Below are positions 20,133 through 36,311 of a stretch of 64,000 nt of DNA, one piece after another. This DNA is from an uncultured Granulosicoccaceae bacterium (GTDB lineage: Bacteria; Pseudomonadota; Gammaproteobacteria; Granulosicoccales; Granulosicoccaceae). A program made the translations under genes and the position numbers. The notes beneath the pieces were generated by a model. That model was not told where the DNA came from. It searched no databases and saw only the letters and a program-made list of their open reading frames with translations. Positions within the stretch are counted from its first letter, which is position 1; the number at the start of each line of letters is the position of its first letter. The stretch lies in contig CAKZUP010000089.1 in the NCBI GenBank assembly GCA_937922945.1, positions 1 through 64,000 on the forward strand, written 5' to 3'.

Positions 20133-20193
20133 AGTGGTTACCCAAGTAGTTCTTGTTAATGAGTGCGACCGTTTTGTTATCGGTTAAGGTCAA

Positions 20194-21600
20194 TTAAAAT
20201 TTATCGAGTGCCAGCAGGTCGGTAGTTCTGCCTTTCTTGGCGGGATAAGCGCGCGCACCATGTACTTTGCGAAGGCGCTTTGCCAGCACTTTTTGTGCTT
20301 TCTTTTCACCGTGAACCAACAACACGGGTGGTGTTGATTTAAAGCCAGCATACCAGTCCATCATACCTTGTTGGTCAGCGTGTGCCGATAGTCCACCGAC
20401 CGTATGAATCTGGGCCGCAACCTTGATGCGTTGTCCCCACAATTTAATGAAAGGCTCGCCGTCGACCAGCTTACGGCCAGTGGAACCAGGAGACTGGTAG
20501 CCTGCAATAATCACGTGGCATTCCGGTTTCCATACATTGTGTTTCAGGTGATGGCGAATTCGTCCGCCAGTGCACATACCGCTACCAGCGATAACGATAG
20601 CGCCGGATTGAATGCGATTGACCGCCATGGATTCTTCCGGTGACTTGGTGAACGCAAGGTTGGGCATATTCAACAGCGGGCCATGTTCTTCGTAGTAGGC
20701 TGCAGCGGTTTCATCGTACAGCGCGGTGTGCTTCAGATAGATTTCCGAAGCTTCGATGGCCATCGGGCTATCGAGAAAAATCTTCCACTTATCAAGACCC
20801 CATTCGTTGAAATAACGCGCGAACATATACAGAATCATTTGACTTCGACCCACTGAAAAAGCGGGTATCAATATATTGCCCTTGCTGTTTTTTACCGCTT
20901 CTGCAATGTGGCTCACTTCATCAAAGGTATCAGACCAATCACGGTGCAGGCGATTGCCATAGGTGCTTTCCATTAGCACCAGATCTGCATGGTCCAGGTA
21001 CGTGAAGTCGCGCAGTATGGGGGCACCACGATGACCCAGGTCACCGCTGAAAACAACTGTTCGGGTCTGGTCACCCTCTGTTAGTGTCAGTTCAACGATA
21101 GCCGACCCCAATATGTGGCCAGCATCGAATAGTCGAATACTGACGCCATCGATAACCTCTTGGGTCTGTTCGTAGCGAACCGTACGGAAACGCTTCAGCG
21201 TTTGCTCAACATCTTGTCTGGAGTACAGAGGCTCCAATGGTGGCTTGCCTTTGCGCGCGCGAATTTTATTGCGAAACTGCACATCGCGTTCATTCAGGCT
21301 TGCTGAATCCTTGAGAAGCACGTTGCATAAATCGCTGCTGGCTTCGTGTGTATAAATCGGACCTTTAAATCCGAAGCGGATTAGCATGGGTAGTCTGCCA
21401 CTGTGGTCGATGTGCGCATGGCTAAGCACCACAGCATCCAACGTGGCAGGATCGAACGGGAAGCCATCATGATTGCGCAACTCGTCTTTGGAGCGGCCCT
21501 GAATCAATCCGCAATCGAGTAACACCTTTCGGTCTCCCACTTCGAGTAGGTGGCAAGATCCGGTAACTTCTTCGGCAGCGCCGTAACTGGTCAATTTCAT
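20194..21600 (-). CDS. MBL-fold / beta-CASP RNA-processing-type hydrolase
   Basis: Metallo-beta-lactamase motif 2 'LSHAHIDHSGRLP' (HxHxDH, residues 61-66) binds two zinc ions. A beta-CASP domain follows with 'LMESTYGNRLH', 'IPAFSVGRSQMILY' and 'IAGSGMCTGGRIRHHL', and the C-terminal motif is 'VGGLSAHADQQGM'. The family (YSH1/CPSF73-like) is an RNA or DNA nuclease family, but the bacterial substrate is not established. I replaced the track's start, which adds 47 residues of non-homologous sequence, with the ATG before KLTSYGAAEEVTG, the normal family N-terminus (468 residues). The neighbour rlmKL diverges. Confidence 0.88.
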   Translation of the reverse strand: MKLTSYGAAEEVTGSCHLLEVGDRKVLLDCGLIQGRSKDELRNHDGFPFDPATLDAVVLSHAHIDHSGRLPMLIRFGFKGPIYTHEASSDLCNVLLKDSASLNERDVQFRNKIRARKGKPPLEPLYSRQDVEQTLKRFRTVRYEQTQEVIDGVSIRLFDAGHILGSAIVELTLTEGDQTRTVVFSGDLGHRGAPILRDFTYLDHADLVLMESTYGNRLHRDWSDTFDEVSHIAEAVKNSKGNILIPAFSVGRSQMILYMFARYFNEWGLDKWKIFLDSPMAIEASEIYLKHTALYDETAAAYYEEHGPLLNMPNLAFTKSPEESMAVNRIQSGAIVIAGSGMCTGGRIRHHLKHNVWKPECHVIIAGYQSPGSTGRKLVDGEPFIKLWGQRIKVAAQIHTVGGLSAHADQQGMMDWYAGFKSTPPVLLVHGEKKAQKVLAKRLRKVHGARAYPAKKGRTTDLLALDKF

Positions 21601-21739
21601 GGTGTTTGGGTCAGGTCTTTTGCAATTGAATAGGGCTGGATGTCCGGTATTACAGGCTATAGTGCAGAGACTGTGCCTCCGGTGAGTGCGGTTATGTTCG
21701 CACGGACACATCCTCGGGTTAAAATAGCGATATAACCCC

Positions 21740-21763
21740 ATTATAGCCTGCCAAAATCAGGCT
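21740..21763 (-). promoter_or_regulatory. TATAAT box and small hairpin in the divergent MBL/rlmKL promoter region
   Basis: On the minus strand CTATAATGG offers a consensus -10 about 140 bp before the MBL start. A perfect 6-bp inverted repeat (AGCCTG-ccaaaat-CAGGCT) overlaps its upstream edge, where an operator could lie. No convincing -35 was found. Confidence 0.3.
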
Positions 21764-21785
21764 CCACAGCCTTACAAATTACCTG

Positions 21786-24203
21786 ATGCCAGCGAACCAA
21801 TCACTATATGCGACCTGCGCCGCTGGACTCCAGCATTTGCTGGCCCGCGAACTAACCGATTTGGGCGCGCGCTCGGTATCCACGGCGGGTGCCGGTGTCC
21901 GTTTCGAGGCGGAGCTGCCAATGGCCTATATGGCCTGTTTGTGGTCTCGATTGGCGAACCGTGTGTTGTTGCCAATCCATTCAGGCGCTGCTGACTCTCC
22001 AGAGGCGCTTTATACGCTTGTCAGAGAAGTCGATTGGTCAAAGCACATGTCATTGAAGGGCACATTGGCGGTTGATTTTTTTACGGCCAACTCAAATATA
22101 ACGCACTCGCAGTATGGGGCGTTAAAAGTCAAAGATGCTGTTGTTGACCAATTTCGCGAAGCCACCGGTGAGCGTCCGAACGTCGAGCGTGAGACCCCTG
22201 ATCTGCGAATTAATGTGTATCTGTTCAGAAATAAGGCGCGAATTGCCATCGATTTATCCGGCAGTAGTCTGCATCGCAGGGGATATAGAGAGCAGGCAGG
22301 GCCGGCACCGATAAAAGAGAATCTTGCCGCAGCACTGCTATTGCAGTGCAATTGGCCCGAACGGGCGGAACGCAGTGAACCGTTTATCGATCCGCTGTGT
22401 GGTTCTGGCACTTTGGTTATTGAAGCCGCCATGATGGCTTGCCATATAGCACCCGGTCTCAAGCGGACCCATTATGGCTTCACCGGTTGGTTGGGGCATG
22501 ATGAATCTGCGTGGCATGGCGTGCTAAGCGATGCTCAAGCGCGTGTTCGTAGAGCACCTTGTGATATTGGTGGTGCTGACAAAGACACGAAAGCGATTGC
22601 CATTGCTATCGAGAATGCGGAGCTAGCGGGAGTTGCCGATGCGGTCAATTTTACTAGCGGCAACGTCTTGACGCAGGGCTTGAGCGTGCCTGTCGCGCAA
22701 GGGCTGGTGTTGTCGAATCCCCCTTATGGCCAACGGCTTGATATCGATGCTGATTTCTACCGACAGTTAGGCAGTGCGCTGAGCGCCAGCTACGCAGGTT
22801 GGCATTGTGGCTTGTTTACCGACATCGATGCGCCAATAAGGCAAACCCGATTGCCGCTTAAATCCAGCTTGCCAGCACGTAATGGCGCAATTGAATGCGC
22901 ACTGTATGAAGGCCGGATACCCGATGCATCTACTGGCGGTCTTCATTTACAGAGCGATACGCCAGTAGCTTCATCAGAGGGCGCTCAGCAGCCGTCAAAC
23001 GTATGGGCTCAGGCGAGTTTAAATCGAACAACAAACAGTGCTGAAGGTGATGGGGCTGAAGATACTGAGGCGTCGATGTTGTCGGAGACGAATAGCACGC
23101 AGGGCACAGCATGGCCTGCTGGCGCTGATGCCACACCATTTGTAAACCGTCTGAAAAAAAATCTCAAGCGATTAAAATCCTGGCAAAAGCGTGAATCCAT
23201 CAATGCGTATCGTGTGTATGATGCAGACCTTCCGGAGTTTGCGGTTGCCATTGATATATATGATTGCGACCAAAGGCACGTCGTGGTTCAGGAATATCAA
23301 GCGCCTGCAACAGTTAATGTGGCCATGGCTGCCGCGCGCTTACGTGCTGTATTAGACGCTGTGCCAGCCACGTTAAATGTTGATGTCAGCTGCATGCACG
23401 TAAAAGTCAGGGAGAAACAATCCGGCTTGGCCCAATATGAAAAGCAAGCCTCGAGTAAGGTGACCGGATTGGTGGAAGAGTTTGGCTACCGGCTGGAATG
23501 TAACTTTAGTGACTATCTTGATACAGGTGTTTTTCTGGATCACCGTAAAGTACGTGAGTTTATTCATAAAAATGCCGACGCAAAGCGCTTTCTGAATTTA
23601 TTCTCATACACCGGCAGCGCGACTATCGCTGCGGCGACAGGTGGTGCCAATTCGAGCGTATCCGTTGATCTGTCGAATCGCTACTCACAATGGTTAACAC
23701 GGAACCTTGCCCACAACCGACTGGACGACAAACAACATCAGGTTGTTAAGAGTGATGTCAATCTTTGGCTTAAGGAAAACCAGCGGGAACGCTTTGACTT
23801 GATTTTGCTCGATCCGCCAACATTTTCTAATTCTACTGGTATAGATGCAGATTGGAATGTGCAGCGCGATCACACGGCGTGTATTCATGCTTGCATGAGT
23901 ATGTTGGAACCTGACGGCGTATTGGTGTTCTCAAATAATTACCGTCGCTTTAAGTTGGATGCTGCGCTGGGTAACGTGCGTGGTGCCGGGCAAGCAAAAC
24001 ACCAGGCGAGGCGCGAGGGCTCGACAGAACAACGCAGCAAGAATTCGGTGCACAACAAGCAGTCTGATAAGCGAGCTAATTCAGGCCCTGCAGTGAATGC
24101 TGTGCAGTATGATATTGAAGACAAGACGCATTGGTCGCTCGATCAGGATTTTCAGCGAAATAGTCGTATTCACCAATGTTGGTTTATCCGGCACAGTAAG
24201 TAG
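21786..24203 (+). CDS. rlmL: Bifunctional 23S rRNA methyltransferase RlmKL
   Basis: Two fused SAM methyltransferases. The N-terminal RlmL part, with a THUMP region (about residues 45-155) and 'DPLCGSGTLVIEAAM' and 'LSNPPYGQRL', makes m2G2445. The C-terminal RlmK part, with 'LNLFSYTGSATIAAATGGA' and 'LLDPPTFSNST', makes m7G2069 (E. coli numbering). At 805 residues it is about 100 longer than E. coli RlmKL. The excess is a Ser/Thr/Gln-rich linker between the halves (about residues 385-445) and a basic insertion (about 740-785, rich in Lys/Arg/Gln) just before the conserved 'WSLDQDFQRNSRIHQCWFI' end. The insertions keep frame, so the gene is probably functional. Confidence 0.95.
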   Translation: MPANQSLYATCAAGLQHLLARELTDLGARSVSTAGAGVRFEAELPMAYMACLWSRLANRVLLPIHSGAADSPEALYTLVREVDWSKHMSLKGTLAVDFFTANSNITHSQYGALKVKDAVVDQFREATGERPNVERETPDLRINVYLFRNKARIAIDLSGSSLHRRGYREQAGPAPIKENLAAALLLQCNWPERAERSEPFIDPLCGSGTLVIEAAMMACHIAPGLKRTHYGFTGWLGHDESAWHGVLSDAQARVRRAPCDIGGADKDTKAIAIAIENAELAGVADAVNFTSGNVLTQGLSVPVAQGLVLSNPPYGQRLDIDADFYRQLGSALSASYAGWHCGLFTDIDAPIRQTRLPLKSSLPARNGAIECALYEGRIPDASTGGLHLQSDTPVASSEGAQQPSNVWAQASLNRTTNSAEGDGAEDTEASMLSETNSTQGTAWPAGADATPFVNRLKKNLKRLKSWQKRESINAYRVYDADLPEFAVAIDIYDCDQRHVVVQEYQAPATVNVAMAAARLRAVLDAVPATLNVDVSCMHVKVREKQSGLAQYEKQASSKVTGLVEEFGYRLECNFSDYLDTGVFLDHRKVREFIHKNADAKRFLNLFSYTGSATIAAATGGANSSVSVDLSNRYSQWLTRNLAHNRLDDKQHQVVKSDVNLWLKENQRERFDLILLDPPTFSNSTGIDADWNVQRDHTACIHACMSMLEPDGVLVFSNNYRRFKLDAALGNVRGAGQAKHQARREGSTEQRSKNSVHNKQSDKRANSGPAVNAVQYDIEDKTHWSLDQDFQRNSRIHQCWFIRHSK

Positions 24204-24233
24204 TTTTTCGTTGCTCGATATCATTACCGGCAT

Positions 24234-24274
24234 AGTGATTACGTGATCAAGTGAACCAGTGATTAAGTGATCAA
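24234..24274 (+). repeat. Two 17-bp direct repeats upstream of sohB
   Basis: AGTGATTACGTGATCAA and AGTGATTAAGTGATCAA (one mismatch) are spaced 24 bp start to start, and each contains the palindrome TGATCA. They lie about 120-160 bp before the sohB start. They look like a duplicated operator or a short duplication; no known regulator site was recognised. Confidence 0.7.
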
Positions 24275-24391
24275 TTGTTATTTAAGTGTTGTTTGGTCAA
24301 TACGTGTTGTTGGTTTTACACGACGTTAGGCCAAACCAAATTTTTATTTGTTGGTGTTCGTTTTTATTAACTGTTATTAGGAGAAAGCCTG

Positions 24392-25486
24392 GTGGGTGAA
24401 TTTTTTGCAAGCTATGGACTGTTTTTACTCAAAGTCATCACTTTTCTAATCGCTATTCTCATTGTGATCTTTGCTATTACCATGGCGAGCACTCGTGGCC
24501 GTAAATCCGGTAAGGACGGGCGTATCGAAATTACCAATCTAAACGAACACTATGAAGACTTGAAAGAGTCTCTGTCTTTTTCTCTGCTTGATGATGAGGC
24601 GCAGAAAATGGCCTTGAAAGAGAAAAAAGCCGAAGAAAAGGCGGAGCGCAAAGCCAAAAAAGCGGCTGCAAAAAAGGCCAAAAAGCAACGTGGCGATGGT
24701 GAAACCCTGGTTGATGAGCCAGGTAAAAACCGCGTTTATGTCATGGATTTTGATGGTGATATTCGGGCCAGTGCCGTGGAGAATATGCGTCGTGAAATTA
24801 CCGCAATTCTCACCACGGCTGAAGATAATGATGAGGTCGTGCTTCGATTGGAAAGTGGTGGTGGCATGGTGACAAGCTACGGCCTTGCCGCATCGCAGCT
24901 TGACCGCATTCGTGATAAGAACGTACCCCTGACTATTTGCGTAGACAAAGTCGCTGCCAGTGGAGGGTACATGATGGCATGCGTTGCAGATAAACTCATT
25001 GCCGCACCGTTTGCGGTGCTCGGCTCGATTGGCGTGGTTGCGCAAATTCCGAATTTTCATCGGTTGCTTAAGCAATTTAATATTGACTTTGAAATGCTCA
25101 CTGCGGGTAAATACAAGCGCACGCTCACCATGTTTGGTGAGAATACTGATGAGGGACGAGAGAAATTCATTGAAGATATTGAACGCATACACACTCAATT
25201 TAAACAATATGTTCATGATCGCCGACCAAGTTTGGATATAGAACAAGTCGCTACTGGCGAGATATGGTCAGGTCAGGACGTGTTGGATCTGGCACTGGCG
25301 GATGAATTGCAAACCAGTGATGCATACCTCATGGGCCGAAGCGATGAGGCCGAAGTAATTCAGGTAAAATTCAAGAAAAAGAAACCGATGTCAGAGCGTT
25401 TTTCCATTGGTATACAAAATACCGCAGATGGTTTACTCATGCGTTGGGTAGACAGGGCGTTCAAAGCGAGGTTTGAGTTGCATTGA
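24392..25486 (+). CDS. sohB: SohB-type S49 peptidase, inner-membrane anchored
   Basis: An N-terminal TM helix (about residues 8-30) precedes a Lys/Glu/Ala-rich coiled region (about 65-100, 'EKKAEEKAERKAKKAAAKKAKK') and an S49 protease domain. The nucleophile is the Ser in 'AASGGYMMACVADKL', and the catalytic Lys lies in 'TAGKYKRTLTMFGEN'. Length 364 agrees with E. coli SohB (349). It is a probable periplasm-facing quality-control protease. The start is GTG with TTAGGAG upstream. The 3' end runs just ahead of a VOC gene. Confidence 0.92.
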   Translation: MGEFFASYGLFLLKVITFLIAILIVIFAITMASTRGRKSGKDGRIEITNLNEHYEDLKESLSFSLLDDEAQKMALKEKKAEEKAERKAKKAAAKKAKKQRGDGETLVDEPGKNRVYVMDFDGDIRASAVENMRREITAILTTAEDNDEVVLRLESGGGMVTSYGLAASQLDRIRDKNVPLTICVDKVAASGGYMMACVADKLIAAPFAVLGSIGVVAQIPNFHRLLKQFNIDFEMLTAGKYKRTLTMFGENTDEGREKFIEDIERIHTQFKQYVHDRRPSLDIEQVATGEIWSGQDVLDLALADELQTSDAYLMGRSDEAEVIQVKFKKKKPMSERFSIGIQNTADGLLMRWVDRAFKARFELH

Positions 25487-25514
25487 GTTTGAGCGCGCTA
25501 CTCTGTCAGCTAGC

Positions 25515-25877
25515 ATGATCGATCATTTCAATCTGCCGGTTTCGAATCTTTTAACCAGCCGAAATTTCTACAAAACCGTGATGCACACACTGGGGCTTGA
25601 GATTCTGGTTGAAGAGACTGATGCTATCGGTTTCGGGCAGGAGAGTTGGACTTTCGGGATTGTAGAAGAATCATCGCCGTTTGTGCCGATACACCTAGCG
25701 TTCAGAGCCAACTCACGTTCTCAAGTTAATGCGTTCTACCTTGCTGCAATGAAAGCAGGCGGTCGCGATAACGGACCGCCTGGCGTTCGAGCGGAGTATG
25801 GGCCGAATTACTATTCGGCTTATGTTCTGGATATTGATGGGCACAATGTTGAAGCCGTGTGCCGGGATGAGGCCTAG
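25515..25877 (+). CDS. VOC (glyoxalase/dioxygenase fold) family protein
   Basis: A single vicinal-oxygen-chelate domain of 120 residues. It has metal-ligand candidates His4 ('MIDHFNLPVSNL') and Glu near the C-terminus ('DIDGHNVEAVCRD'), and the typical 'FYKTVMHTLGLEILVEE'. Such proteins include glyoxalases, dioxygenases and antibiotic-binding proteins; the substrate is unknown. The ORF-track start overlaps the sohB end; I use the next Met, which matches the family. It converges on the cupin gene 20 bp away. Confidence 0.8.
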   Translation: MIDHFNLPVSNLLTSRNFYKTVMHTLGLEILVEETDAIGFGQESWTFGIVEESSPFVPIHLAFRANSRSQVNAFYLAAMKAGGRDNGPPGVRAEYGPNYYSAYVLDIDGHNVEAVCRDEA

Positions 25878-25897
25878 TATTGAAACACGGTTGAGGT

Positions 25898-26278
25898 TTA
25901 AATACGCACCACTTTTGCTGCCGTTTTTTCATCGCCTGTATTCGGCGTGCCAGCAGGCTCGATTAGCAGTAAATGGGTTTCTTCAGCAGCAGATGTGCAG
26001 TGCTCAACACCTTTTGGAATAACGTACATTTCTCCCGCAGCAAGTTTTATATCCTCCTGCTCCTTTAAATGTATGGTCAGCTCACCGGAGAGCACCAGAA
26101 AAAAATCGTCGGTATCATCGTGTTTGTGCCAATTAAATTCGCCAAGCACTTTAACTACCATGACATCATGGCCGTTAAATGCGGCAACCGATTTCGGGCT
26201 CCAGTGTTCGTTAAATGTCTTGAGTTTTTCATTCAAGTTTATTGCTTGTGCGTCCAATCTCGTTCTCCCTGTACTCAT
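25898..26278 (-). CDS. Cupin-domain protein
   Basis: A small (126 residues) single-domain cupin. It has the metal-binding motif 'FNWHKHDDTDDFFLVLSGEL' (His, His, and a Glu/Asp position) and the second motif 'MYVIPKGVEHCTSAAEE'. It resembles the cupins annotated as mannose-6-phosphate isomerase-like or oxalate-binding. No partner gene indicates a substrate. Its promoter lies in the 200-bp gap before the DUF2461 gene, on the opposite strand. Confidence 0.85.
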   Translation of the reverse strand: MSTGRTRLDAQAINLNEKLKTFNEHWSPKSVAAFNGHDVMVVKVLGEFNWHKHDDTDDFFLVLSGELTIHLKEQEDIKLAAGEMYVIPKGVEHCTSAAEETHLLLIEPAGTPNTGDEKTAAKVVRI

Positions 26279-26480
26279 CTGTAAAGTTCGCTGCTGTAAA
26301 GTTCGCTGCAGATTTCGCGCTATCCTAGATAAAAGTTTAGCGAATTAATTCAGCGGTCAATTAAGTTAATCTATGGTTGCTACCGCTGGATTGCAATAAG
26401 ACAGCTCAGGTTCAAACACCCTAGCCAAAGTGATAGGATGATAGGCAAGCTGTTTTTTTTTAAATAGTCGTGAGGGTGTC

Positions 26481-27158
26481 ATGTTTGATCAAAAAACGAT
26501 TAAGTTTCTAAAAGAGCTGGAAAAAAATAATCAGCGCGACTGGTTTGAGAAAAACCGGCAACGCTATGAGAGTGAAGTACGTGGCCCGGCGCTTAACTAT
26601 ATCGAAGCCATGCAAGATCCCATACACCTGATTTCCCCGTATTTTGATGTGTCTGCCAAGAAAACCGGTGGCTCGCTGATGCGCGTTTTCAAAGATATGC
26701 GGTTCAGTAAAGATCAAAAGCCTTATAAAACCAACGTGGGAATCCAGTTCAGGCACGTTGCTGGAAAAGATGTTCATGCGCCTGGATTTTATTTGCATAT
26801 TGAGCCGGGTCAGATGTTCCTGGCTGCTGGTATCTGGAGCCCCGATAACCCAACGCTACACAAAGTTCGAACCATGATAGATGAGTACCCGGATGAGTGG
26901 TTGGGCATTAAAAAGAAATTAGTGAGTGGTAAAAGTCAATTTGAAATGCACGATGGATCATTAAAGCGTGCACCCAAAGGGTTTCCAGTAGATCATCCCC
27001 TAATTGAAGATTTGAAACGAAAGCACTTTATTGTGTCGATAAAGCTTTTGCAAAAAGATATTTTCGGCAAACCTGCCGTAAGCAATACGGCCCGGCTATT
27101 CAAGAATACCGCACCGTTGGTTAAGTTTATCTGTGAATCCTGCGATCTGGATTTTTAG
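26481..27158 (+). CDS. DUF2461 family protein (TIGR02453)
   Basis: The family signature is complete: 'TIKFLKELEKNNQRDWFEKNRQRYE' at the N-terminus, 'GGSLMRVFKDMRFSKDQKPYKTNVGIQF' and 'PGFYLHIEPGQMFLAAGIWSPDNPTLHKVR'. The length of 225 residues is standard. The biochemical role of the family is not established. It appears monocistronic, with an RBS-like GAGGGTGTC before the ATG. Confidence 0.9.
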   Translation: MFDQKTIKFLKELEKNNQRDWFEKNRQRYESEVRGPALNYIEAMQDPIHLISPYFDVSAKKTGGSLMRVFKDMRFSKDQKPYKTNVGIQFRHVAGKDVHAPGFYLHIEPGQMFLAAGIWSPDNPTLHKVRTMIDEYPDEWLGIKKKLVSGKSQFEMHDGSLKRAPKGFPVDHPLIEDLKRKHFIVSIKLLQKDIFGKPAVSNTARLFKNTAPLVKFICESCDLDF

Positions 27159-27524
27159 TTTTTTGTCGATGTAAATGTATCATTTAAGTTTCTTCCAACA
27201 ATTCAAAATACTGCGTATTGTAGGCGTGAATACTTTCTTTAGCGATAAACTGCTGCATCGCTTAGGGTGAGTTCTACCGTAACCAGTGTTGCGCGCTGTA
27301 TTAAACTGTCCGTGTTCTTCGATAGGCGAGGAAAGTTCACGCCGATAGCGTCAATAAAAACTGTATAAAGGTGCACATAAAAACTGTGACCGGGCGCGAG
27401 AACCCCTTAGCACAGAGCCCAATAATTGCATCTAACGGTTTCATGGTGGTAAAGACAGTATTTGTGTAGGGCGATACGCTGGCATTGGCTGGTAAACGTA
27501 TCGGTCGCGTCTGGACATATAATC
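27159..27524. other. 366-bp gap upstream of the diguanylate cyclase, with an 11-bp direct repeat
   Basis: No gene is seen. ATAAAAACTGT occurs at 27354-27364 and 27377-27387, 23 bp apart (about two helical turns), and AATAC-tgc-GTATT is a small inverted repeat near 27210. The paired repeat could be a regulator site for the downstream GGDEF gene. I recognise no riboswitch. Confidence 0.4.
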
Positions 27525-28445
27525 ATGCAAGCTTATTCGTCATTAGCTTTAGCAACTGAAGTATTGGATATCCTTCCCAACCCAGTCTTGGTAAAAAACG
27601 AACAACTGGAATACGTTTGGGTTAATGCCGCGTTCGAGAAACTATTTAATGTTAGCAGAGATGGTGTTATTGGAAAGCTGGATGCTCAGCTGTTCCCTGA
27701 CCGGCAGGTGTCTCAATGCAACGGCGGTGATTTAAGGGTCCTGAAGGATGGTGAAGTAGATGAAGCTGTTGAAACAGTTTTTGAAACCAGCGGTGCAGAA
27801 AGAGAGACCATAACCAGAAAAAGCAGGCTCGAACTTGACACTGGTGAGATCTATCTTGTGGGCGTAATGCACGACATCACTGATATAACTCACGCTAACG
27901 CTGCCCTGAAAGCAAGCGAGTCTAAGCTACAGGAACAGGCTCAAAAATTGTCAGTGCTCGCCACAACTGACATGTTGACGGAATGCAGAAACCGGCGTGC
28001 TCTTATGGAAGTTGCTGAGCAAACCGTTGAGAATCAATTCAGTTCCGTTGCGTTGTTGTTAATGGATTTAGACAAATTCAAGCATATAAACGACCGATTC
28101 GGCCATGATGCTGGGGATGCTGCGCTTCAACATTTTTCTACAGAGATAAAAAGCCAACTTCGCTCGCCAGAAAATCTGTTCAGGCTTGGCGGAGAAGAGT
28201 TTGTGGTATTACTCGATGCAGACTCTGCAGATGAGGCATTAGCCAAAGCTGATGAACTGCGTGCCCACATTGAAAATTCCGCTTTTTTTCACGATATGCA
28301 GCACATTCCTTTTACCATCAGTGTAGGCTTGGTATTCAAGAAAAAGGGCGTTAGATCTAATACGAACGACATTCTGTCAAAGGCCGACGAGTGTCTTTAT
28401 CAAGCTAAAAATGAAGGCAGGAATAGGGTAAAGCTAGCGGCGTAA
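27525..28445 (+). CDS. PAS-GGDEF diguanylate cyclase
   Basis: A PAS domain (about residues 8-125, 'VLDILPNPVLVKNEQLEYVWVN') is followed by a short coiled coil and a GGDEF domain with active-site 'RLGGEEFVVLL' and 'DLDKFKHINDRFGHDAGD'. GGEEF is a catalytically competent variant, so the protein should make cyclic di-GMP. The position of the inhibitory I-site reads RSPE rather than RxxD, so product inhibition may be weak or absent. No TM segment or signal peptide is seen in the chosen form, which makes it a cytoplasmic sensor. I start at the ATG before QAYSSLA rather than the track's start. Confidence 0.88.
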   Translation: MQAYSSLALATEVLDILPNPVLVKNEQLEYVWVNAAFEKLFNVSRDGVIGKLDAQLFPDRQVSQCNGGDLRVLKDGEVDEAVETVFETSGAERETITRKSRLELDTGEIYLVGVMHDITDITHANAALKASESKLQEQAQKLSVLATTDMLTECRNRRALMEVAEQTVENQFSSVALLLMDLDKFKHINDRFGHDAGDAALQHFSTEIKSQLRSPENLFRLGGEEFVVLLDADSADEALAKADELRAHIENSAFFHDMQHIPFTISVGLVFKKKGVRSNTNDILSKADECLYQAKNEGRNRVKLAA

Positions 28446-28515
28446 CGCAGGTTGCACTCTATGAAAACTGGGTGCGTTCACTGTTGCTTGTTCCTGTGAT
28501 AGATTAAAATATTTC

Positions 28516-28996
28516 ATGGATGATCAAGGGGGAAAAAAGGAATGTACAACCTACTATAACTGCACACTTGCTCTGAACGCACACGATTTTGCCCGCATTG
28601 CGATTGCACTGAGTACAAAAAACACGGCACGTTTCACAAACATTAGCCCATACAAATCAAAATTCTTTACATGATAAATTACAGGAAGCGGCTAGCCGAA
28701 TTTCAAAACAAGCAAAGAATGATATTTTCGTATACGACACTGGTATCGTGTTAAAGCGCATTGTTGCTACACGAAAAAACTTAACTCACAGATCAAAACC
28801 ATCTAAGAATTCAAATGTTGTGGTTGGAGAAGAATTGCATGATTGCGTTGAGTCATTGTATTGGGTAATCTAAATTCTGCTACTTAGTGAAACTCAACTG
28901 TCTGACGAACATATGTCCGAGAAAATGGCCAGTTCGTATTTGATAAAAAATCAACGCCTTGGTCCACTTATGCCTAGTGAAAGGGGTGAGATTTAG
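28516..28996 (+). pseudogene. Decayed gene with HEPN-like (ApeA-type) C-terminus
   Basis: Read by hand in two frames. The first frame (ATG at 28516) ends at TGA after 52 codons. The second, open from about 28613, reads '...LHDKLQEAASRISKQ...IVLKRIVATRKNLTH', a stop (TAA at 28871), then 'ILLLSETQLSDEHMSEKMASS'. The 'R-K-N-L-T-H' (Rx4H) in a helical context, followed by a 'GEELHDCVESLYWVI.ILLLSE' helix, matches my recollection of the C-terminal HEPN domain of ApeA-like antiphage proteins. The frameshift and stop indicate a dead gene. The family call is inference from a short stretch. Confidence 0.42.
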
Positions 28997-29444
28997 ATGC
29001 GTTTATGACTATGGAGCTGTTCATAGGGCATATGCGTCTCGATTCTGTTTGAATATCATCCTAAATCAAACGCGGGGAAAGATTGGTGAACTATTAGGGC
29101 GAGTAGCGTTAACCCAGCAGACAAATGCAACTGACTCTAGTTTAGTTACAGATAAGGCAGCGTTCAATACGCCCTATGCTTAAAGGCGTATTGATGTTTA
29201 TTGGAAGGAAAATGGTCTTGCCGTTGAAACCAAGATGGGCTAAAAGATACCCGGTGAAGCGCAAGAAAGTATTGTGTCCGCGTTCCAAGAGAAGCTAAAT
29301 CTGCGAAACGAGCTAGCTGACGCTGGCTGTGCATACGATTTTTCGAAAATAGTTATGTCGGTACAGCGCCTCTTTGATCGGACACGCATCGGCGAATTTG
29401 AGATTGTTCGCGCCCCAGTCATTTCTGACGGCAAGAACGCGTAA
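28959..29444 (+). pseudogene. Decayed gene with PD-(D/E)XK-nuclease-like signature, interrupted by two stops
   Basis: One continuous frame is broken by two TAA codons (29181 and 29241). It reads 'GKIGELLGRVALTQQTNATDSS', then a stop, 'RIDVYWKENGLAVETKMG', then another stop and 'KIPGEAQESIVSAFQEKL...'. Asp...ExK spaced this way, flanked by hydrophobic strands, is the core of PD-(D/E)XK endonucleases. The final TAA (29442) lies inside the 5' core box of the attC site, as in integron cassettes. It may be an inactivated restriction-type nuclease; no specific family was recognised. The last 56 codons could still be translated from a GTG. Confidence 0.4.
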
Positions 29445-29532
29445 CTGTGATTGCAGCCGTCGCTTGGCCCGGTGCTCCCTTCGCTACCGCTACGGGCACC
29501 AGCCTCAAGCGCAGCTTAATGCTCTGTTATAT
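29439..29532 (+). mobile_element. Integron attC recombination site
   Basis: A 94-bp imperfect palindrome has all attC parts: R''-like GCGTAAC, then TGTGATTGCAGCCGTCGCTTG, a central stem (GGTGCTCCC/GGGCACC), CAAGCGCAGCTTAATG, and the R' box GTTATAT(GC). The 3' half (GCTTAATGCTCTGTTATATGC) and the 5' half (GCGTAACtgtgaTTGCAGCCG) closely parallel the aadA1-type attC (GCTTAATTCAAGCGTTAGATGC; GTCTAAC...TTCAAGCCG), recalled from memory. An upstream frame ends with TAA inside the R'' box, and a downstream ORF starts 18 bp after the site. No integrase gene is in the window. Confidence 0.75.
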
Positions 29533-29549
29533 GCTAAGGCAAATATTCC

Positions 29550-29942
29550 ATGTCCTATATCGAACCCGATCCACGTGTTGTTCAGTACTTGTACGATTCG
29601 GCAGAGCTTTTTATACCGATTATTGTCGGCTACGCCTTTGCGTATTGCGGTGCAATTGGATTCCTGTGGAAAGAACAAGGTGAACATTTTGACGCAATAT
29701 TTTTTACTCTCTCATCAATAAGTGTTCTTTTGCTAATCGGTGCTTTGGGGCTTTGGTGTGGAGTAATCGCTTTTTGCATTTGGTATGTCGATACTAATTT
29801 GGACATCTGGCTGATACGAGGAAGGTGGTCGGGACGATTTGGCTTGATATTGTTCTTTGCTTCTGTCTTCTTGGGAGCTTTGGCGCTATATCTAAATCTA
29901 TGGAGAAACAGACGTGCAAGAACCGGCCTAAACCATTCATAG
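29550..29942 (+). CDS. Putative integron-cassette protein with three TM helices
   Basis: A 130-residue product starts 18 bp after the attC R' box, the usual cassette arrangement. Predicted membrane helices lie at about residues 20-42, 50-80 and 93-116. A short charged loop precedes the last helix (LIRGRWSGR) and the tail is basic (RNRRARTG). No family is recognised. Its codon use and AT content look different from neighbouring genes. A second, well-formed attC is not evident in the 190 bp after the stop, so the cassette's 3' end may have decayed. Confidence 0.6.
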   Translation: MSYIEPDPRVVQYLYDSAELFIPIIVGYAFAYCGAIGFLWKEQGEHFDAIFFTLSSISVLLLIGALGLWCGVIAFCIWYVDTNLDIWLIRGRWSGRFGLILFFASVFLGALALYLNLWRNRRARTGLNHS

Positions 29943-30134
29943 CATAGGCGAATGAGCAACTTGCTTTTTCAAGCGGTCAAAGATTTGGAAGTCGAGTTAA
30001 TTTGAATTCGACTAGCATAACGTACGCAGACGAAAACTTGATGGGTAGCCAATTTGCTTTTAAAGCGGGCAGAATTTTTATGTAAGGCATGCCCTTATTA
30101 GTTAATCCTTTTTCATATTAACTAGGCTCAGCCC

Positions 30135-31775
30135 TTAAACATCATTAGCCCATTCGCGCAGTTTAAACTTCTGCACTTTGCCCGTAGAGGTTTTGGGTAA
30201 CTCACGAAAAACGACTTTACTTGGGCATTTAAAGTGCGCCATGTGTTCGCGACAGTAGTCAATAATGGCTTGTTCTGACACATCGGCACCATTGACTAAC
30301 TGCACGAACGCGCACGGTGTTTCTCCCCAGTGCTCATCATCTTTTGCCGCAACTGCAGCTTCCAGAATATCCGGGTGAGAATAGAGCACGTCTTCAATTT
30401 CTATAGACGATATATTTTCACCACCGGAAATTATGATGTCTTTTGCGCGGTCGAGAATTCTCAGGTAGCCGTCGGGGTCCATAACGGCCAGATCGCCACT
30501 GTGGAACCAGCCTCCATGAAATGCTGCATCGTTGGCTTCGGGGTTCTTGTAATAACCTCGCATAACAATGTTGCCGCGAAACATAACCTCACCAATGGTT
30601 TCACCATCTCTTGGAACTGGCTGCAACGTATCCGGGTTCAGTACATCCAGTTCGTCGAGCACCTGGTAGCGAACGCCTTGTCGTGCTTTAAGTACTGATT
30701 TCTGTTCTTCATCTAATGTATTCCATTCGGACTTCCATGCGCACATAACCGCAGGGCCATAGGTTTCTGTTAAACCGTATACGTGAGTGATATGAAAACC
30801 CAGCGCTTCCATGCGTTGCAGCACACTTGCCGGCGGTGGCGCAGCGGCGGTCATGACCTCAACAGGCTTTGAGGGCTTTTTTACCAAAGCCGGGTCGGCG
30901 TTAATAATGAAATTTAATATAATGGGGGCACCACAAAAATGGGTAACGCCGTGTTGTTCTATGCTGTTGTAAATCACTTCCGCACTGACGGTTCGAGAGC
31001 ACACACTCACACCCGCGTTAGCTGCTAGCGACCACGGAAAGCACCAACCGTTGCAATGGAACATGGGGAGCGTCCACAAGTAAACCGGGTGTGGGCCCAT
31101 GTGCCAACCGGTGATGTTACTCAGGGCGTTAAGATAAGCACCGCGATGGTGATAGACAACGCCTTTCGGATTACCGGTTGTGCCCGATGTGTAGTTCAAT
31201 GAAATGGAAGCCCACTCATCGTTTGGCAGCGACCAGTCGTAAGCTGCATTACCCTCGGCCACAAACGCCTCGTACTGGTTGTCGCTTATCGCGTCTCCGG
31301 TTGCATCTGAATCGTGTATGTCGATAAGCAGTGGTTTGGACTGCATGAGTGCCAGTGCCTTTTGCACCACACTGGTAGAGTCACGATCGACGAACAGCAC
31401 CTTGGCACCAGAATGCTCAAGAATATACGCAATGGTTTTTGCTTCAAGCCGTGTGTTGATAGCGTTCAGTACGCCACCACACATTGGCACCGCGAAATGA
31501 GCTTCGTACACTTCGGGTATGTTGGGCGCAATAATAGAAACAACATCGCCCGGGACAACGCCCAGCTGGTTTAATCTTGACGCTATTTTCACACACCGCT
31601 TGTACACCTCGGCATAAGTCAAAGTGCGACTACCATGTACAACCGCTGTGTGTTCCGGGTATACATCTGCTGATCGCTTTAGAAAGCTCAGCGGCGATAA
31701 AGGCGTATAGTTGGCAAGGTGCCTGGGAAGCGGATAGCTATCATCACCAGGCTGTGCATTACTGTTAGTGTTCAT
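30135..31775 (-). CDS. Acyl-CoA synthetase, AMP-forming
   Basis: A member of the ANL superfamily. P-loop 'LNYTSGTTGNPKGVVYHHRGAY' (about residues 184-205), 'GLTETYGPAVMC', the hinge region 'GWFHSGDLAVMDPDGYLRILDRAKDIIISGGENISSIEIE', and the catalytic Lys in 'LPKTSTGKVQKFKLR' are all present. It activates a carboxylic acid to its CoA thioester through an acyl-adenylate. The chain length or identity of the acid is undetermined. The gene is divergent from the CaiB/BaiF gene with about 30 bp between start codons, so the pair shares a promoter region and probably a regulator and pathway. Confidence 0.92.
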   Translation of the reverse strand: MNTNSNAQPGDDSYPLPRHLANYTPLSPLSFLKRSADVYPEHTAVVHGSRTLTYAEVYKRCVKIASRLNQLGVVPGDVVSIIAPNIPEVYEAHFAVPMCGGVLNAINTRLEAKTIAYILEHSGAKVLFVDRDSTSVVQKALALMQSKPLLIDIHDSDATGDAISDNQYEAFVAEGNAAYDWSLPNDEWASISLNYTSGTTGNPKGVVYHHRGAYLNALSNITGWHMGPHPVYLWTLPMFHCNGWCFPWSLAANAGVSVCSRTVSAEVIYNSIEQHGVTHFCGAPIILNFIINADPALVKKPSKPVEVMTAAAPPPASVLQRMEALGFHITHVYGLTETYGPAVMCAWKSEWNTLDEEQKSVLKARQGVRYQVLDELDVLNPDTLQPVPRDGETIGEVMFRGNIVMRGYYKNPEANDAAFHGGWFHSGDLAVMDPDGYLRILDRAKDIIISGGENISSIEIEDVLYSHPDILEAAVAAKDDEHWGETPCAFVQLVNGADVSEQAIIDYCREHMAHFKCPSKVVFRELPKTSTGKVQKFKLREWANDV

Positions 31776-31805
31776 AGCACCAGATTAAACCTGTTGAGTG
31801 TAGAT

Positions 31806-33014
31806 ATGGCAAGCAAAAAACCACTAGAGGGCATTCGGGTTTTGGAAATGGGTCAACTCATTGCCGGGCCTTTCGCCGGCCAGATGCTGGCCTATTTTGG
31901 CGCGGACGTTGTCAAGATTGAACCGCCTGGCAAAGGCGACCCGCTGCGCACCTGGCGTTTGCTTGATGATTCTGGTACCTCGTATTGGTGGTCAAGCATA
32001 GCGCGCAACAAACGCTCACTCGCGCTGGACTTATCCAGCCGCGAAGCTCAGCAGTTGGCCCGTTCGCTCATTAATGAAGCTGATGTACTAATCGAGAATT
32101 TTCGCCCCGGCAAAATGGAAAGTTGGGGGCTTGGCCCCGACGAATTTAAAACGAGTAATGCCAAACTCGTTTACACCCGCGTTTCCGGCTATGGTCAGGA
32201 TGGTCCATATGCGTCGAAGCCAGGCTTTGCATCGGTGTGTGAGGGTGTTGCCGGTATGCGATACGTTAACGGGTTTCCCAATGAAGCTCCGGTCCGGGCA
32301 AATTTAAGTCTGGGTGATACCTTTGCAGGCATGCATGCCGTTATCGGTATCTTGTTGTCGTTGGTCAATCGACATCACGATCAGGGCAGAGGGCAAACCG
32401 TCGATGTATCCATTGTGGAATCTGTGTTTAACATGATGGAAGGTGTTGTGTCTGAGTACGATGGCAGCAATGCCATCAGAGAACCCTCCGGGACAACGGT
32501 CACAGGCATAGTGCCAACCAACACCTACGCTTGTGCAGACGGAAAATACATAGTCATAGGCGGCAATGGTGACTCCATTTTCAAACGCTTGATGGAAGCC
32601 ATTGATCGAAAAGACATGGCCGAGGATCCGGCCCTTGCTGTCAACAGTGGCAGAGTGCAGCACGAAGCTAAAATAGATGCAGCCTTGGCGCACTGGGCCG
32701 CTGCCTGTTCGTCAGAGGAGGCGCTGGCAACGCTTGATGCGGCTGGTGTCCCCGCTGGGCCAATCAACTCGGTGGCAGATGTGCGAGCCGATCCACACTT
32801 TCAGGCCCGTGGCAGTTTTGAACCCATAGAAGTAAACGGTCAAAGCCGCGTGGTACCCGCGGTTCACCCCAAGTTAATGCGTACACCGGGCGCAACCGAT
32901 CGAGGAGGCCCCGAACTCGGGGAGCACACCGAAATCGTGCTTCGCGAGTGGCTAGGTGCTGATGATCAGCAGATTCTTCGCTGGACTGAATCCGGTGCAA
33001 TCCCCGACAGGTAG
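31806..33014 (+). CDS. CaiB/BaiF family CoA-transferase
   Basis: A type-III CoA-transferase that moves CoA between carboxylates. It has 'LEGIRVLEMGQLIAGPFAGQMLAYFGADVVKIEPP' at the N-terminus, the conserved 'RNKRSLALDL', 'LIENFRPGKMESWGLGPDEF', and the Asp of 'NLSLGDTFAGMHAV' in the catalytic-loop region. The length is 402 residues. I use the ATG immediately before ASKKPLEG; the track start extends into the divergent promoter and lacks homology. Substrates are unknown, but pairing with a divergent acyl-CoA ligase suggests use of an organic acid imported or released by another pathway. Confidence 0.92.
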   Translation: MASKKPLEGIRVLEMGQLIAGPFAGQMLAYFGADVVKIEPPGKGDPLRTWRLLDDSGTSYWWSSIARNKRSLALDLSSREAQQLARSLINEADVLIENFRPGKMESWGLGPDEFKTSNAKLVYTRVSGYGQDGPYASKPGFASVCEGVAGMRYVNGFPNEAPVRANLSLGDTFAGMHAVIGILLSLVNRHHDQGRGQTVDVSIVESVFNMMEGVVSEYDGSNAIREPSGTTVTGIVPTNTYACADGKYIVIGGNGDSIFKRLMEAIDRKDMAEDPALAVNSGRVQHEAKIDAALAHWAAACSSEEALATLDAAGVPAGPINSVADVRADPHFQARGSFEPIEVNGQSRVVPAVHPKLMRTPGATDRGGPELGEHTEIVLREWLGADDQQILRWTESGAIPDR

Positions 33015-33334
33015 CTGGAAAACTGCCACTTAACAGCCTCGGCGCTGGTTAATGACTTGCGAATCGGGCCAGTTTGCAATTTGTCGATTTTTTCTAAATG
33101 GCTTGCGCTTCCGCGCTTGAAAATCAGTTTTGCTACAGCGGAAATCTAACTTATTGAAAGTTAAAGAAAAAAATGTCGGATTTTTTTCTTGGACCGGTTT
33201 CAAGTGTTTTCGACTGCTGGTTTATTGTCTTGGAAAATTCACCTTCTCGTTAAGTTGTGTGTTGCGCCGTCGCTAAAAAGGTGTACGGCTAGCATCGGCG
33301 CTGCGCAGCTGATGGGGCTCTAGTCCACTCGCGA
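33015..33334. other. 320-bp gap containing a perfect A/T palindrome (33164-33190)
   Basis: AAGAAAAAAAT-gtcgg-ATTTTTTTCTT is an 11-bp perfect inverted repeat made almost only of A/T. In RNA the stem would be weak. Its U-run makes it a possible bidirectional terminator for the CaiB/BaiF gene, or a bent, protein-bound site. Promoters for the signalling operon should lie after it. Confidence 0.45.
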
Positions 33335-33739
33335 GTGCGAAAGCGTCTGCACGCAGCGGGTTGGGATCGAGAATTACAAACCGAGGAGCAGGTTTTGCGT
33401 TGGGATTTGTTTTTAAAAGCTGGTAGCGCACTGGCCATGTATGTCGCGTTGATGTGTGGGTTTATTGCTGGAATTAATCCTGTTGGGTACGCGTTGTTCA
33501 CGGCTATTGTTTTGGCGCTGGGTTTGTCTGTGCAGGCAATTGGCACACCGGATCTGCGCACGTCAATCCCAAGTAAAGCAAAAACGGCTAACCCCGAGAA
33601 CGCATTGTTACCCTCTCTTGGCAAATCGATGGCTGAGTTGCACGCGTTGCAACGGGATATCAACACATTGCAGGCACAATTCACAGCAGAAAATGCAGAA
33701 CGATCCAGCATAGCGAATCAGGACGATTCGAACAGCTAG
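33335..33739 (+). CDS. Small two-helix membrane protein preceding the Hpt gene
   Basis: A 134-residue protein with a basic N-terminus (MRKRLHAAGWDREL), two adjacent TM helices (about residues 28-48 and 50-70), and a cytoplasmic tail predicted as a coiled coil ('SMAELHALQRDINTLQAQFTAENAE'). The gene begins with GTG and lacks a strong Shine-Dalgarno sequence, so the start is tentative. It lies 17 bp upstream of the Hpt gene and is probably co-transcribed with it, suggesting a role in the same signalling module. No family recognised. Confidence 0.5.
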   Translation: MRKRLHAAGWDRELQTEEQVLRWDLFLKAGSALAMYVALMCGFIAGINPVGYALFTAIVLALGLSVQAIGTPDLRTSIPSKAKTANPENALLPSLGKSMAELHALQRDINTLQAQFTAENAERSSIANQDDSNS

Positions 33740-33756
33740 TAACGGAGAACGCACAC

Positions 33757-34113
33757 ATGAATATACTTGATCAATCAGCATTGGATAATATCCGCGCACT
33801 ACAGCGTCCGGGTTCGCCAGATTTGCTGGGGCGTATTGTAGAGCTGTTTTTAACAGACGCGCCGCTGGGTGTCGCGAAGGTTCAAACCGCGATAGCTGCA
33901 GCCGATCTTGAAACCGTTTCGATCACCGCACATTCCTTGAAATCAAGCGCGAGTTACCTGGGTGCTACTGCATTCTCGCAACGCATGGCTGGTTTGGAAA
34001 GAGCTGCACGTGATGAAGACTTGGCCGCTTGCCAGCAGTTAAATCAGGGCTTGGAAAGCGATTGTCAGGATGTTGTAGACGCGTTGTTGCAGTTGAAGGA
34101 TAAAGCTGCGTGA
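33757..34113 (+). CDS. Stand-alone Hpt (histidine phosphotransfer) protein
   Basis: A four-helix Hpt domain of 118 residues with the phospho-accepting His in 'ITAHSLKSSASYLGA' (about residue 49). The Lys two positions later and the Gly further on are conserved as in ArcB/BarA Hpt domains. It relays phosphate between a hybrid kinase and a response regulator. No kinase is encoded nearby. The downstream gene, which overlaps its stop codon (GTGA), encodes a REC-GGDEF-EAL protein that is the obvious partner. Confidence 0.9.
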   Translation: MNILDQSALDNIRALQRPGSPDLLGRIVELFLTDAPLGVAKVQTAIAAADLETVSITAHSLKSSASYLGATAFSQRMAGLERAARDEDLAACQQLNQGLESDCQDVVDALLQLKDKAA

Positions 34114-36311
34114 AAACAACGCAAGACACCACGCCACAGACAACTCGTAGCGAGGTTGTCTCGCAGACCAAACCGGTCATATTGCTGGTGGACGATGATC
34201 ACGTTAGCCTGATGATGGCTGAAGGTCCGCTAATGGACGCCGGTTTTCAGGTGATACAAGCCACTGATGGTCTTCAGGCCATAGAGCAGTTTCAAAAGTA
34301 TTCTCCTGATTTAATCATCATGGACGCCGTCATGCCGAACATGGATGGCTTCGAGGCGATCTCGGAAATTCGCAAAACCGCTTTGGGTGTGCACGTGCCT
34401 ATCTTGATGATTACCGGGCTCGACGATCTGGAATCAATTACTCGAGCTTATGAAGAAGGTGCGACTGATTTTCTTGCAAAGCCTGTAAACTTTTTTATCC
34501 TGCCTTATCGAATGCAATACATGCTGCGATCGAAAGAGACAGCTGATGAGCTTCGTTCCAGCCAGGCTCGGTTAGACAACGCGCAACGGATAGCCAGATT
34601 GGGTCATTGGGAGTGGGATATCGCCTCTAACACGGCGAACTGGTCGTTGGAAGTAGCGCGTATGTTTGGTTTCGACAAACGGCTGTTACGAGGCTCGATG
34701 GATAGCTTGTTTGAAAAAGTGGATGCTCAGAAGCGCCAGGCTGTTCGTCTGGATGCTGAACATGCTGTTCAATCGGCCAAATCGATTAGCCTTGAATTTA
34801 ATATCGATGATAACCGGGGCTCTGATGTGCTGTCCGTTCGATTTGAGGCGGAGCCCAAGCTTGATCATGAAGGCAATTGCACGCATATGCTTGGCACCAT
34901 TCAAGACATCACAGAGTCTGCCAATGCCCGTAAAGAAATTCACAACCTGGCTTATAACGATATAGTGACTGGTCTGCCTAATCGAGCTCAGCTAAGAGAA
35001 AACCTGTCAAACGCGCTTAAGCTTGCGGAAAGACAAGATGTTCAGTTTGCATTGCTATTTCTTGATCTTGATCATTTTAAAAAGGTCAACGATACGCTCG
35101 GACACGATGCCGGCGATGACTTGCTCATGCAGGTGTCGCGTCGTTTGTCCAGTGTGTTGCGCGATTCCGATATCCTCAGCCGGCCCGTTGATGCGCCAGA
35201 ATATGCTGAGCAAGCTTTCAACAAAGATACGGTTGCACGGATTGGTGGTGACGAATTTGTGGTGTTGTTAGGCGACATTCAAGCGCCAGAAGATGCAGCG
35301 CGGGTTGCCCAGCGAATCGCTGACTCAGTTAGCGAACCGTATAACATTGCTGATGTAGAAGTGGCAATCACCACCACCATCGGTATCAGTGTTTATCCGT
35401 CAGATGGACGTGACTCAGAAACACTGATGAAACACGCTGACGTTGCCATGTACCACGCTAAAGAGAATGGGCGTAACGGATTTCAATTCTATTCTCGTGC
35501 AATTCACGAACAGGCATTGTCACGTTTCTCGATGGAGCGAGAGCTAAAGCTGGCTATTGAAGAGAATGGACTTTCTTTGTTATACCAACCCAAACTGGAT
35601 ATGAAGACGGGACTTACCGTTGGCGTAGAAGCGCTGACGCGTTGGAATCATCCGGAGCGAGGGGAAATCAGTCCAAATGATTTTATTCCCATGGCGGAAG
35701 AAACGGGATTAATACTTCCGCTTGGTCGGTGGGTCTTGAATGAGGCGACCAGACAAATTCAGAAATGGAAAGAGAAGGGGTTAGGTGAATTTTCCGTAGC
35801 GGTTAATTGCTCGCCTATCCAGTTCACGCGCGGCAACATGATTGGTGATATCGAGGGCGCGTTAAAACAGGTGGATATCGACCCGTCATTACTTGAAATT
35901 GAATTAACCGAGAATCTATTTCTACACAACATAGAGAACGGTATACAGTTGCTGGATAACATGAAGCAATTGGGCGTTCAGATAGCAATAGACGATTTCG
36001 GTACGGGCGTGTCATCACTGAGCTATTTAAAGCGCTTGCCGGTTGACATGCTGAAAATAGATAGAACGTTTGTTGAAGACTTGCATCGGGATAAAGGCGA
36101 TCAAGCGATTGTTTCTGCTATCGTCACGCTTGGTCATAACCTTGGTTTGTCGGTTGTGGCCGAAGGCGTTGAGAAAAAAGAGCAATATGAAATATTGCAA
36201 GAGCTTGAATGCAACGAAGTACAGGGATACTATTTTAGTTACCCGCTTACTGTCGCGCAGTTCGAACAGTGGGTGTTGGAGCAGAAAGGTCCTATTAAAC
36301 AGGTCGGTTAA
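34110..36311 (+). CDS. Response regulator with REC-PAS-GGDEF-EAL domains (c-di-GMP turnover)
   Basis: The REC domain (residues about 22-140) has phosphoacceptor Asp in 'LIIMDAVMPNMDGF' and conserved Lys in 'LAKPVNFF'. A PAS/PAC region lies at about 155-280. The GGDEF domain has an intact 'RIGGDEFVVLL' but no RxxD I-site; an insertion (SRPVDAPEYAEQAF) sits just upstream instead. The EAL domain has 'GVEALTRWNHP', 'VNCSPIQF', 'ELTENLF', 'IDDFGTGVSSLSYL' and 'LKIDRTFV', so the phosphodiesterase site looks complete. The start codon is GTG overlapping the Hpt stop. Both activities may exist; the net effect cannot be judged from sequence. Confidence 0.93.
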   Translation: MKTTQDTTPQTTRSEVVSQTKPVILLVDDDHVSLMMAEGPLMDAGFQVIQATDGLQAIEQFQKYSPDLIIMDAVMPNMDGFEAISEIRKTALGVHVPILMITGLDDLESITRAYEEGATDFLAKPVNFFILPYRMQYMLRSKETADELRSSQARLDNAQRIARLGHWEWDIASNTANWSLEVARMFGFDKRLLRGSMDSLFEKVDAQKRQAVRLDAEHAVQSAKSISLEFNIDDNRGSDVLSVRFEAEPKLDHEGNCTHMLGTIQDITESANARKEIHNLAYNDIVTGLPNRAQLRENLSNALKLAERQDVQFALLFLDLDHFKKVNDTLGHDAGDDLLMQVSRRLSSVLRDSDILSRPVDAPEYAEQAFNKDTVARIGGDEFVVLLGDIQAPEDAARVAQRIADSVSEPYNIADVEVAITTTIGISVYPSDGRDSETLMKHADVAMYHAKENGRNGFQFYSRAIHEQALSRFSMERELKLAIEENGLSLLYQPKLDMKTGLTVGVEALTRWNHPERGEISPNDFIPMAEETGLILPLGRWVLNEATRQIQKWKEKGLGEFSVAVNCSPIQFTRGNMIGDIEGALKQVDIDPSLLEIELTENLFLHNIENGIQLLDNMKQLGVQIAIDDFGTGVSSLSYLKRLPVDMLKIDRTFVEDLHRDKGDQAIVSAIVTLGHNLGLSVVAEGVEKKEQYEILQELECNEVQGYYFSYPLTVAQFEQWVLEQKGPIKQVG

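Follow-up and report, generated by a model that had tools for sequence, protein, structure and literature searches.

We identified a single attC site, the recombination site of integron gene cassettes, in a 64-kb stretch of DNA (referred to as the window) from a marine draft genome of a genus that we call Granulosicoccus, meaning the genus common to the window genome and the genome G009. Our analyses very strongly favor a bona fide attC that derives from at least two once-adjacent integron cassettes, now stranded, with the last attC and any integrase presumably lost. Integron integrases (IntI) recombine the folded bottom strand of attC sites, and cassettes are joined at G^TT. We describe the feature as a single-attC remnant of two or more cassettes, and not as a formal CALIN, whose integrase and terminal attC are lost or absent. 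The window attC is a relic of cassette capture of a known and ordinary kind. Taken alone it is of minor weight, but it led to a genus that is rich in integrase genes or attC sites.

Layout and fold of the attC site

The site and its boxes are as follows.

29439 to 29532, + strand: attC site, 94 bp, with the hairpin on the bottom strand (R1 covariance-model match and bottom-strand fold)
29439 to 29445, + strand: 5' core box (R''), GCGTAAC (sequence; positions 1 to 7 of the R1 model)
29450 to 29459, + strand: left inner box (L''), ATTGCAGCCG, including the additional unpaired G (of ATTG) that an attC should have (R1 alignment)
29510 to 29520, + strand: right inner box (L'), CGCAGCTTAAT, pairing with L'' and nearly identical to the aadA-type inner box (R1 alignment)
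29526 to 29532, + strand: 3' core box (R'), GTTATAT (sequence)

The complete site, GCGTAACTGTGATTGCAGCCGTCGCTTGGCCCGGTGCTCCCTTCGCTACCGCTACGGGCACCAGCCTCAAGCGCAGCTTAATGCTCTGTTATAT, is bordered by core boxes that each deviate by one base from RYYYAAC and GTTRRRY, respectively, and whose TAAC and GTTA are complementary. Core boxes, paired arms, and unpaired spacers all lie where the initial annotation had placed them, with exact coordinates. One of its details needed adjustment. An ORF had been described as ending in the 5' core box; a TAA stop is present there (29442 to 29444), but it closes the tail of a decayed gene. The new ORF proposed to follow the 3' core box is also present, with its ATG at 29550, 17 bases past that box.

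In single-stranded DNA folding, the bottom strand formed an imperfect hairpin with an unpaired spacer and an extrahelical base at -20.6 kcal/mol, compared with -14.8 kcal/mol (standard deviation, 2.5) for shuffled sequences (z, -2.3), of which 6 of 200 folded equally well. The top-strand fold was ordinary (z, -0.1). This asymmetry is expected of attC sites, in which the bottom strand serves as the recombination substrate (see also PMC2727003).

A covariance model of Granulosicoccus attC sites recognizes the site

Covariance models of attC sites that are specific to a taxon are an established approach (PMC8352920). Our model, R1, was built from 29 attC sites in the integron arrays of other Granulosicoccus genomes, with none from the window genome. 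Integron regions were scanned for head-to-tail sites by a core-box and hairpin scan of our own making, the structure was drawn by hand on the 29-site alignment, and the model was calibrated. Changes on both sides were found in 21 of the 26 pairs. Pairing held in 87.5% of cells versus 66% in shuffles, with covariation of 0.497 versus 0.129, and all of these signals collapsed once partners were slid by one column. A single unpaired G was invariant in all 29 training sites.

R1 gave one match in the window, at 29439 to 29532 on the + strand, with 39.6 bits and an E value of 9.7e-8; the next candidate reached 12.1 bits. Over the whole genome (~5 Mb), this site (E = 7.7e-6) was the sole match at E <= 1 among the 150 of 1154 first-look candidates that were scored, which agrees with the initial description of the attC as isolated. 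A covariance-model search had been proposed as a check on the site, with a lack of any match counting against it; with R1, such a search returned a match. The alignment retains most of the 26 pairs and sets the unpaired G of L'' at the position that is G in 29/29 training sites, although the score is below that of most genus sites, many of which reach 55 to 101 bits. An Rfam search at the gathering threshold gave no match for the site, consistent with the lack of an attC match in the Rfam library.

On class 1 integrons of plasmids, R1 detected attC sites right beside genes of the aadA type and ant(2'')-Ia, with scores of 32 to 34 bits that are below the score of the window site, and missed several other class 1 sites. 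R1 is thus specific rather than sensitive, and its recovery of textbook class 1 attC sites supports R1 as a true attC model. Judged by its core boxes, its predicted bottom-strand hairpin, and its R1 score, 29439 to 29532 appears to be a genuine attC.

Probable remnants of two cassettes flank the site

Three features flank the site on the same strand.

28446 to 29444, + strand: region of the decayed gene in the upstream cassette (three-frame translation with stops; its stop codon lies in the attC core)
~28679 to 28909, + strand: ApeA-like HEPN remnant (PF18739 HEPN_Apea, E = 2e-9; PADLOC Cas13-ApeA, E = 2e-6)
29550 to 29942, + strand: gene of the downstream cassette, encoding a 130-aa protein that looks membrane-embedded (ORF)

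The upstream gene is defense-like and decayed, with no open frame of at least 80 aa in 28446 to 29373 and no intact gene between the end of a GGDEF gene (28445) and the attC. Its C-terminal tail runs to the TAA in the 5' core box; relatives of this tail were absent from 48 family genomes and the fetched loci, and a plasmid search with the decayed tail matched nothing. A stop codon at this place is in keeping with the Granulosicoccus arrays examined, whose core is often GCCTAAC. The upstream gene has its own attC at its 3' side, as a gene cassette does.

The downstream protein weakly resembled Phage_holin_2 (Pfam E = 0.003, under the cut-off) and had one relative among the sequences searched, in a cassette array (locus L010) of the Granulosicoccus MAG G009. 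Besides the window genome, G009 is the only genus genome with this gene. The relative is 79 to 82% identical over 71 to 73 aa (80% over 212 bp of coding DNA) and is itself interrupted by a stop codon. In both the window and L010, the ATG lies 24 bases past the G of GTTATATGCT. Homology to L010 lies past the cassette junction G^TT at 29526/29527, and the DNA before the junction could not be convincingly aligned. Since the junction distance is the same in L010, the upstream DNA is unrelated, and the L010 copy lies in an array with attC sites, the downstream gene bears the signature of a cassette gene, being placed directly past the R' junction with the same boundary elsewhere among other neighbors. 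GTTATATGCT is near the general 3' core consensus, so that its sharing alone is modest evidence.

Upstream of the L010 copy, R1 found two strong attC matches (132 to 249 and 1170 to 1287) and a weak, short one (1762 to 1817); the attC directly before the copy was too degenerate for R1 to recognize. The short match is a 56-bp attC-like site of 10 bits amid 118-bp sites, and it follows a macro-domain-like gene. In the window, no attC was found after the downstream gene in 29943 to 30134 with filters off. With no 3' attC of its own, the downstream unit can be no more than a truncated cassette. Viral contigs searched with the downstream protein contained no relative, and plasmid searches with the locus DNA and the downstream protein matched nothing.

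Integrase search and the locus in relatives

No integron integrase exceeded the TIGR02249 cut-off in the whole draft assembly of the window genome, and curated equivalog cut-offs identify the two best matches as XerD and XerC. The initial remark that no integrase was in view thus extends to the assembly, which, lacking a match over this cut-off, shows no complete integron (intI and attI beside an array). The assembly comprises 5.04 Mb in 225 contigs and is 94% complete, and its missing part may hold an integrase or an array.

Comparison with related genomes delimited the following interval around the site.

25474 to 30134, no strand: variable interval between conserved blocks (synteny and blastn breakpoints)

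The flanking blocks, 18474 to 25486 and 30135 to 36311, keep their order in three relatives (G021, G013, and G020) and in most of a fourth (G023), with G022 covering the right-hand block only, and homology to the relatives breaks at ~25474 and ~30134. The syntenic interval of the relatives contains other genes and no attC, and the downstream gene is missing from it. The upstream GGDEF gene has no synteny in the relatives, so that no clean empty site can be read. The interval 25474 to 30134 is a variable spot and not a fixed integron position. Its equivalents in relatives hold ORFs resembling LysE-type exporters, MerR-like regulators, glyoxalase-like proteins, and others, as in a chromosomal exchange hot spot.

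Proposed origin of the stranded cassettes

Our favored reading is that a cassette carrying the HEPN/ApeA-like gene once stood upstream of, and next to, one carrying the gene for the small membrane protein. Most likely these cassettes came to this variable part of the chromosome in one of two ways: either an IntI active elsewhere, in the same cell or in an ancestor, inserted them off-target, or they came as an array fragment that was later severed from its integrase. Loss of the last attC and any integrase after arrival would have left the cassettes stranded, and the upstream HEPN/ApeA-like gene is now decayed. Related origins have been proposed for attC sites that lack an integrase, namely off-target insertion by an IntI encoded elsewhere, loss of intI, and rearrangement (PMC8618304). 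Three observations support stranding: the boundary is shared with L010, the assembly lacks IntI, and relatives have no attC in the syntenic locus. The initial annotation had suggested one stranded cassette as a CALIN-like remnant: stranding is upheld, but two cassettes are implied rather than one, and a single attC does not make a CALIN.

We considered three other explanations. A complete integron may exist in the organism but be missing from or split in the draft, with the lone attC as an outlying cassette of an active system. We regard this as possible but unlikely: the genome is an incomplete draft in many contigs, integrases of several relatives lie at contig ends, as would be expected if repeated attC sites break assemblies, and drafts are known to overestimate integrase-less clusters (PMC9024848), but the window site lies in the middle of a 65-kb contig, between chromosomal flanks that are conserved, the assembly has no further attC among the 150 of 1154 first-look candidates scored, and the attC is isolated with or without an integrase elsewhere. 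We are considerably more doubtful that a single cassette, consisting of the HEPN gene and the attC, inserted at a secondary G^TT before a resident gene. Detection of only one attC in the window, including the filter-free search of 29943 to 30134, would suit such an event, as would the off-target insertion proposed for integrase-less clusters (PMC8618304). However, the downstream gene would then be no cassette, whereas its only other occurrence in the genus, in G009, is also 24 bp past GTTATATGCT in a cassette array, and it is absent from the syntenic interval of relatives. Finally, a chance hairpin or a REP-like or terminator element resembling attC is barely credible. Hairpins are common and the fold z of -2.3 alone is slight, but Rfam gave no match, and the R1 match (E = 9.7e-8) is unique in 5 Mb among the 150 of 1154 first-look candidates scored and follows the genus attC family position by position, including the invariant unpaired G. 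A REP element, a refuting case raised at the outset, was ruled against by blastn, which found no second full copy of the site in the genome.

Integrons across Granulosicoccus

Of 27 genus genomes, 16 encode an integron integrase that passes the TIGR02249 cut-off, against 0 of 14 control genomes, and R1 found attC sites, forming one covarying family, in 24 of the 27. Several genus genomes carry two or three integrases, and one integrase from G018 is 51% identical to IntI1. G001, a single-contig genome, contains three attC clusters and a partial integrase plus an isolated attC at 2.259 Mb, indicating that lone sites are not only assembly artifacts. Next to this isolated site (L083:7158-7254; 65.6 bits) are two small genes and a pair of ORFs resembling a split transposase. 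In addition, G004 carries two integrases and two arrays, L035 (G004:C101) and L039 (G004:C18), whose attC sites are of two clearly different sequence types, which suggests that integrase and attC types are paired within one cell.

Full-text literature searches for Granulosicoccus together with integrons returned only an unrelated review, and the cassette pool of the genus is apparently undescribed in the literature searched. The genus-wide occurrence of integrons with an attC family is the wider new point of this work and the one most worth following. Tentatively, and with rather less than even confidence, we propose that the genus is a major, as yet undescribed host group of chromosomal integrons and possesses an attC family of its own, that its integrases scatter single cassettes, some of them defense-like, off-target across the chromosome, and that lone attC sites testify to past captures even in genomes whose integrase has been lost. 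Lone attC sites of this kind would record past off-target cassette capture, and default software settings discard them.

Comparison with known systems

Like a CALIN, the window feature combines an attC and a cassette gene with no integron integrase nearby. By the IntegronFinder 2.0 default, however, a CALIN requires at least two attC sites, and the window and genome hold one among the 150 of 1154 first-look candidates scored; the program reports clusters from two attC sites upward, although single ones can be real (PMC9024848). A further counterpart is the isolated attC of G001, which is also single, with no second site within the 14 kb examined. Unlike the window genome, G001 also has the three attC clusters and the partial integrase noted above.

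The aadA-type attC sites of class 1 integrons share the architecture of the window site, and the inner boxes of the two are nearly identical, GCCG(T/A)CGC and GCGC(A/G)GCTTAAT. R1 finds both, and the inner right arm of the window site, GCGCAGCTTAAT, differs by one base from that of aadA7, GCGCGGCTTAAT. The resemblance to the aadA1 attC that had initially been noted is thus borne out by a model trained on Granulosicoccus only. The aadA-type sites differ in length (60 bp versus 94 bp) and, unlike the window site, are carried by mobile integrons that encode IntI1 and resistance genes.

Compared with attC sites of Granulosicoccus arrays (such as L052:7927-8023, L051:14385-14481, and L050:4235-4331), which sit head to tail, several beside IntI, the window site stands alone and scores lower. 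It nonetheless belongs to the same length class, with the same core boxes, inner boxes, and unpaired G, and both arms of the array sites are recognizable in it, as in the CGCTACCGCT loop and the CCAGCCTCAAG right arm.
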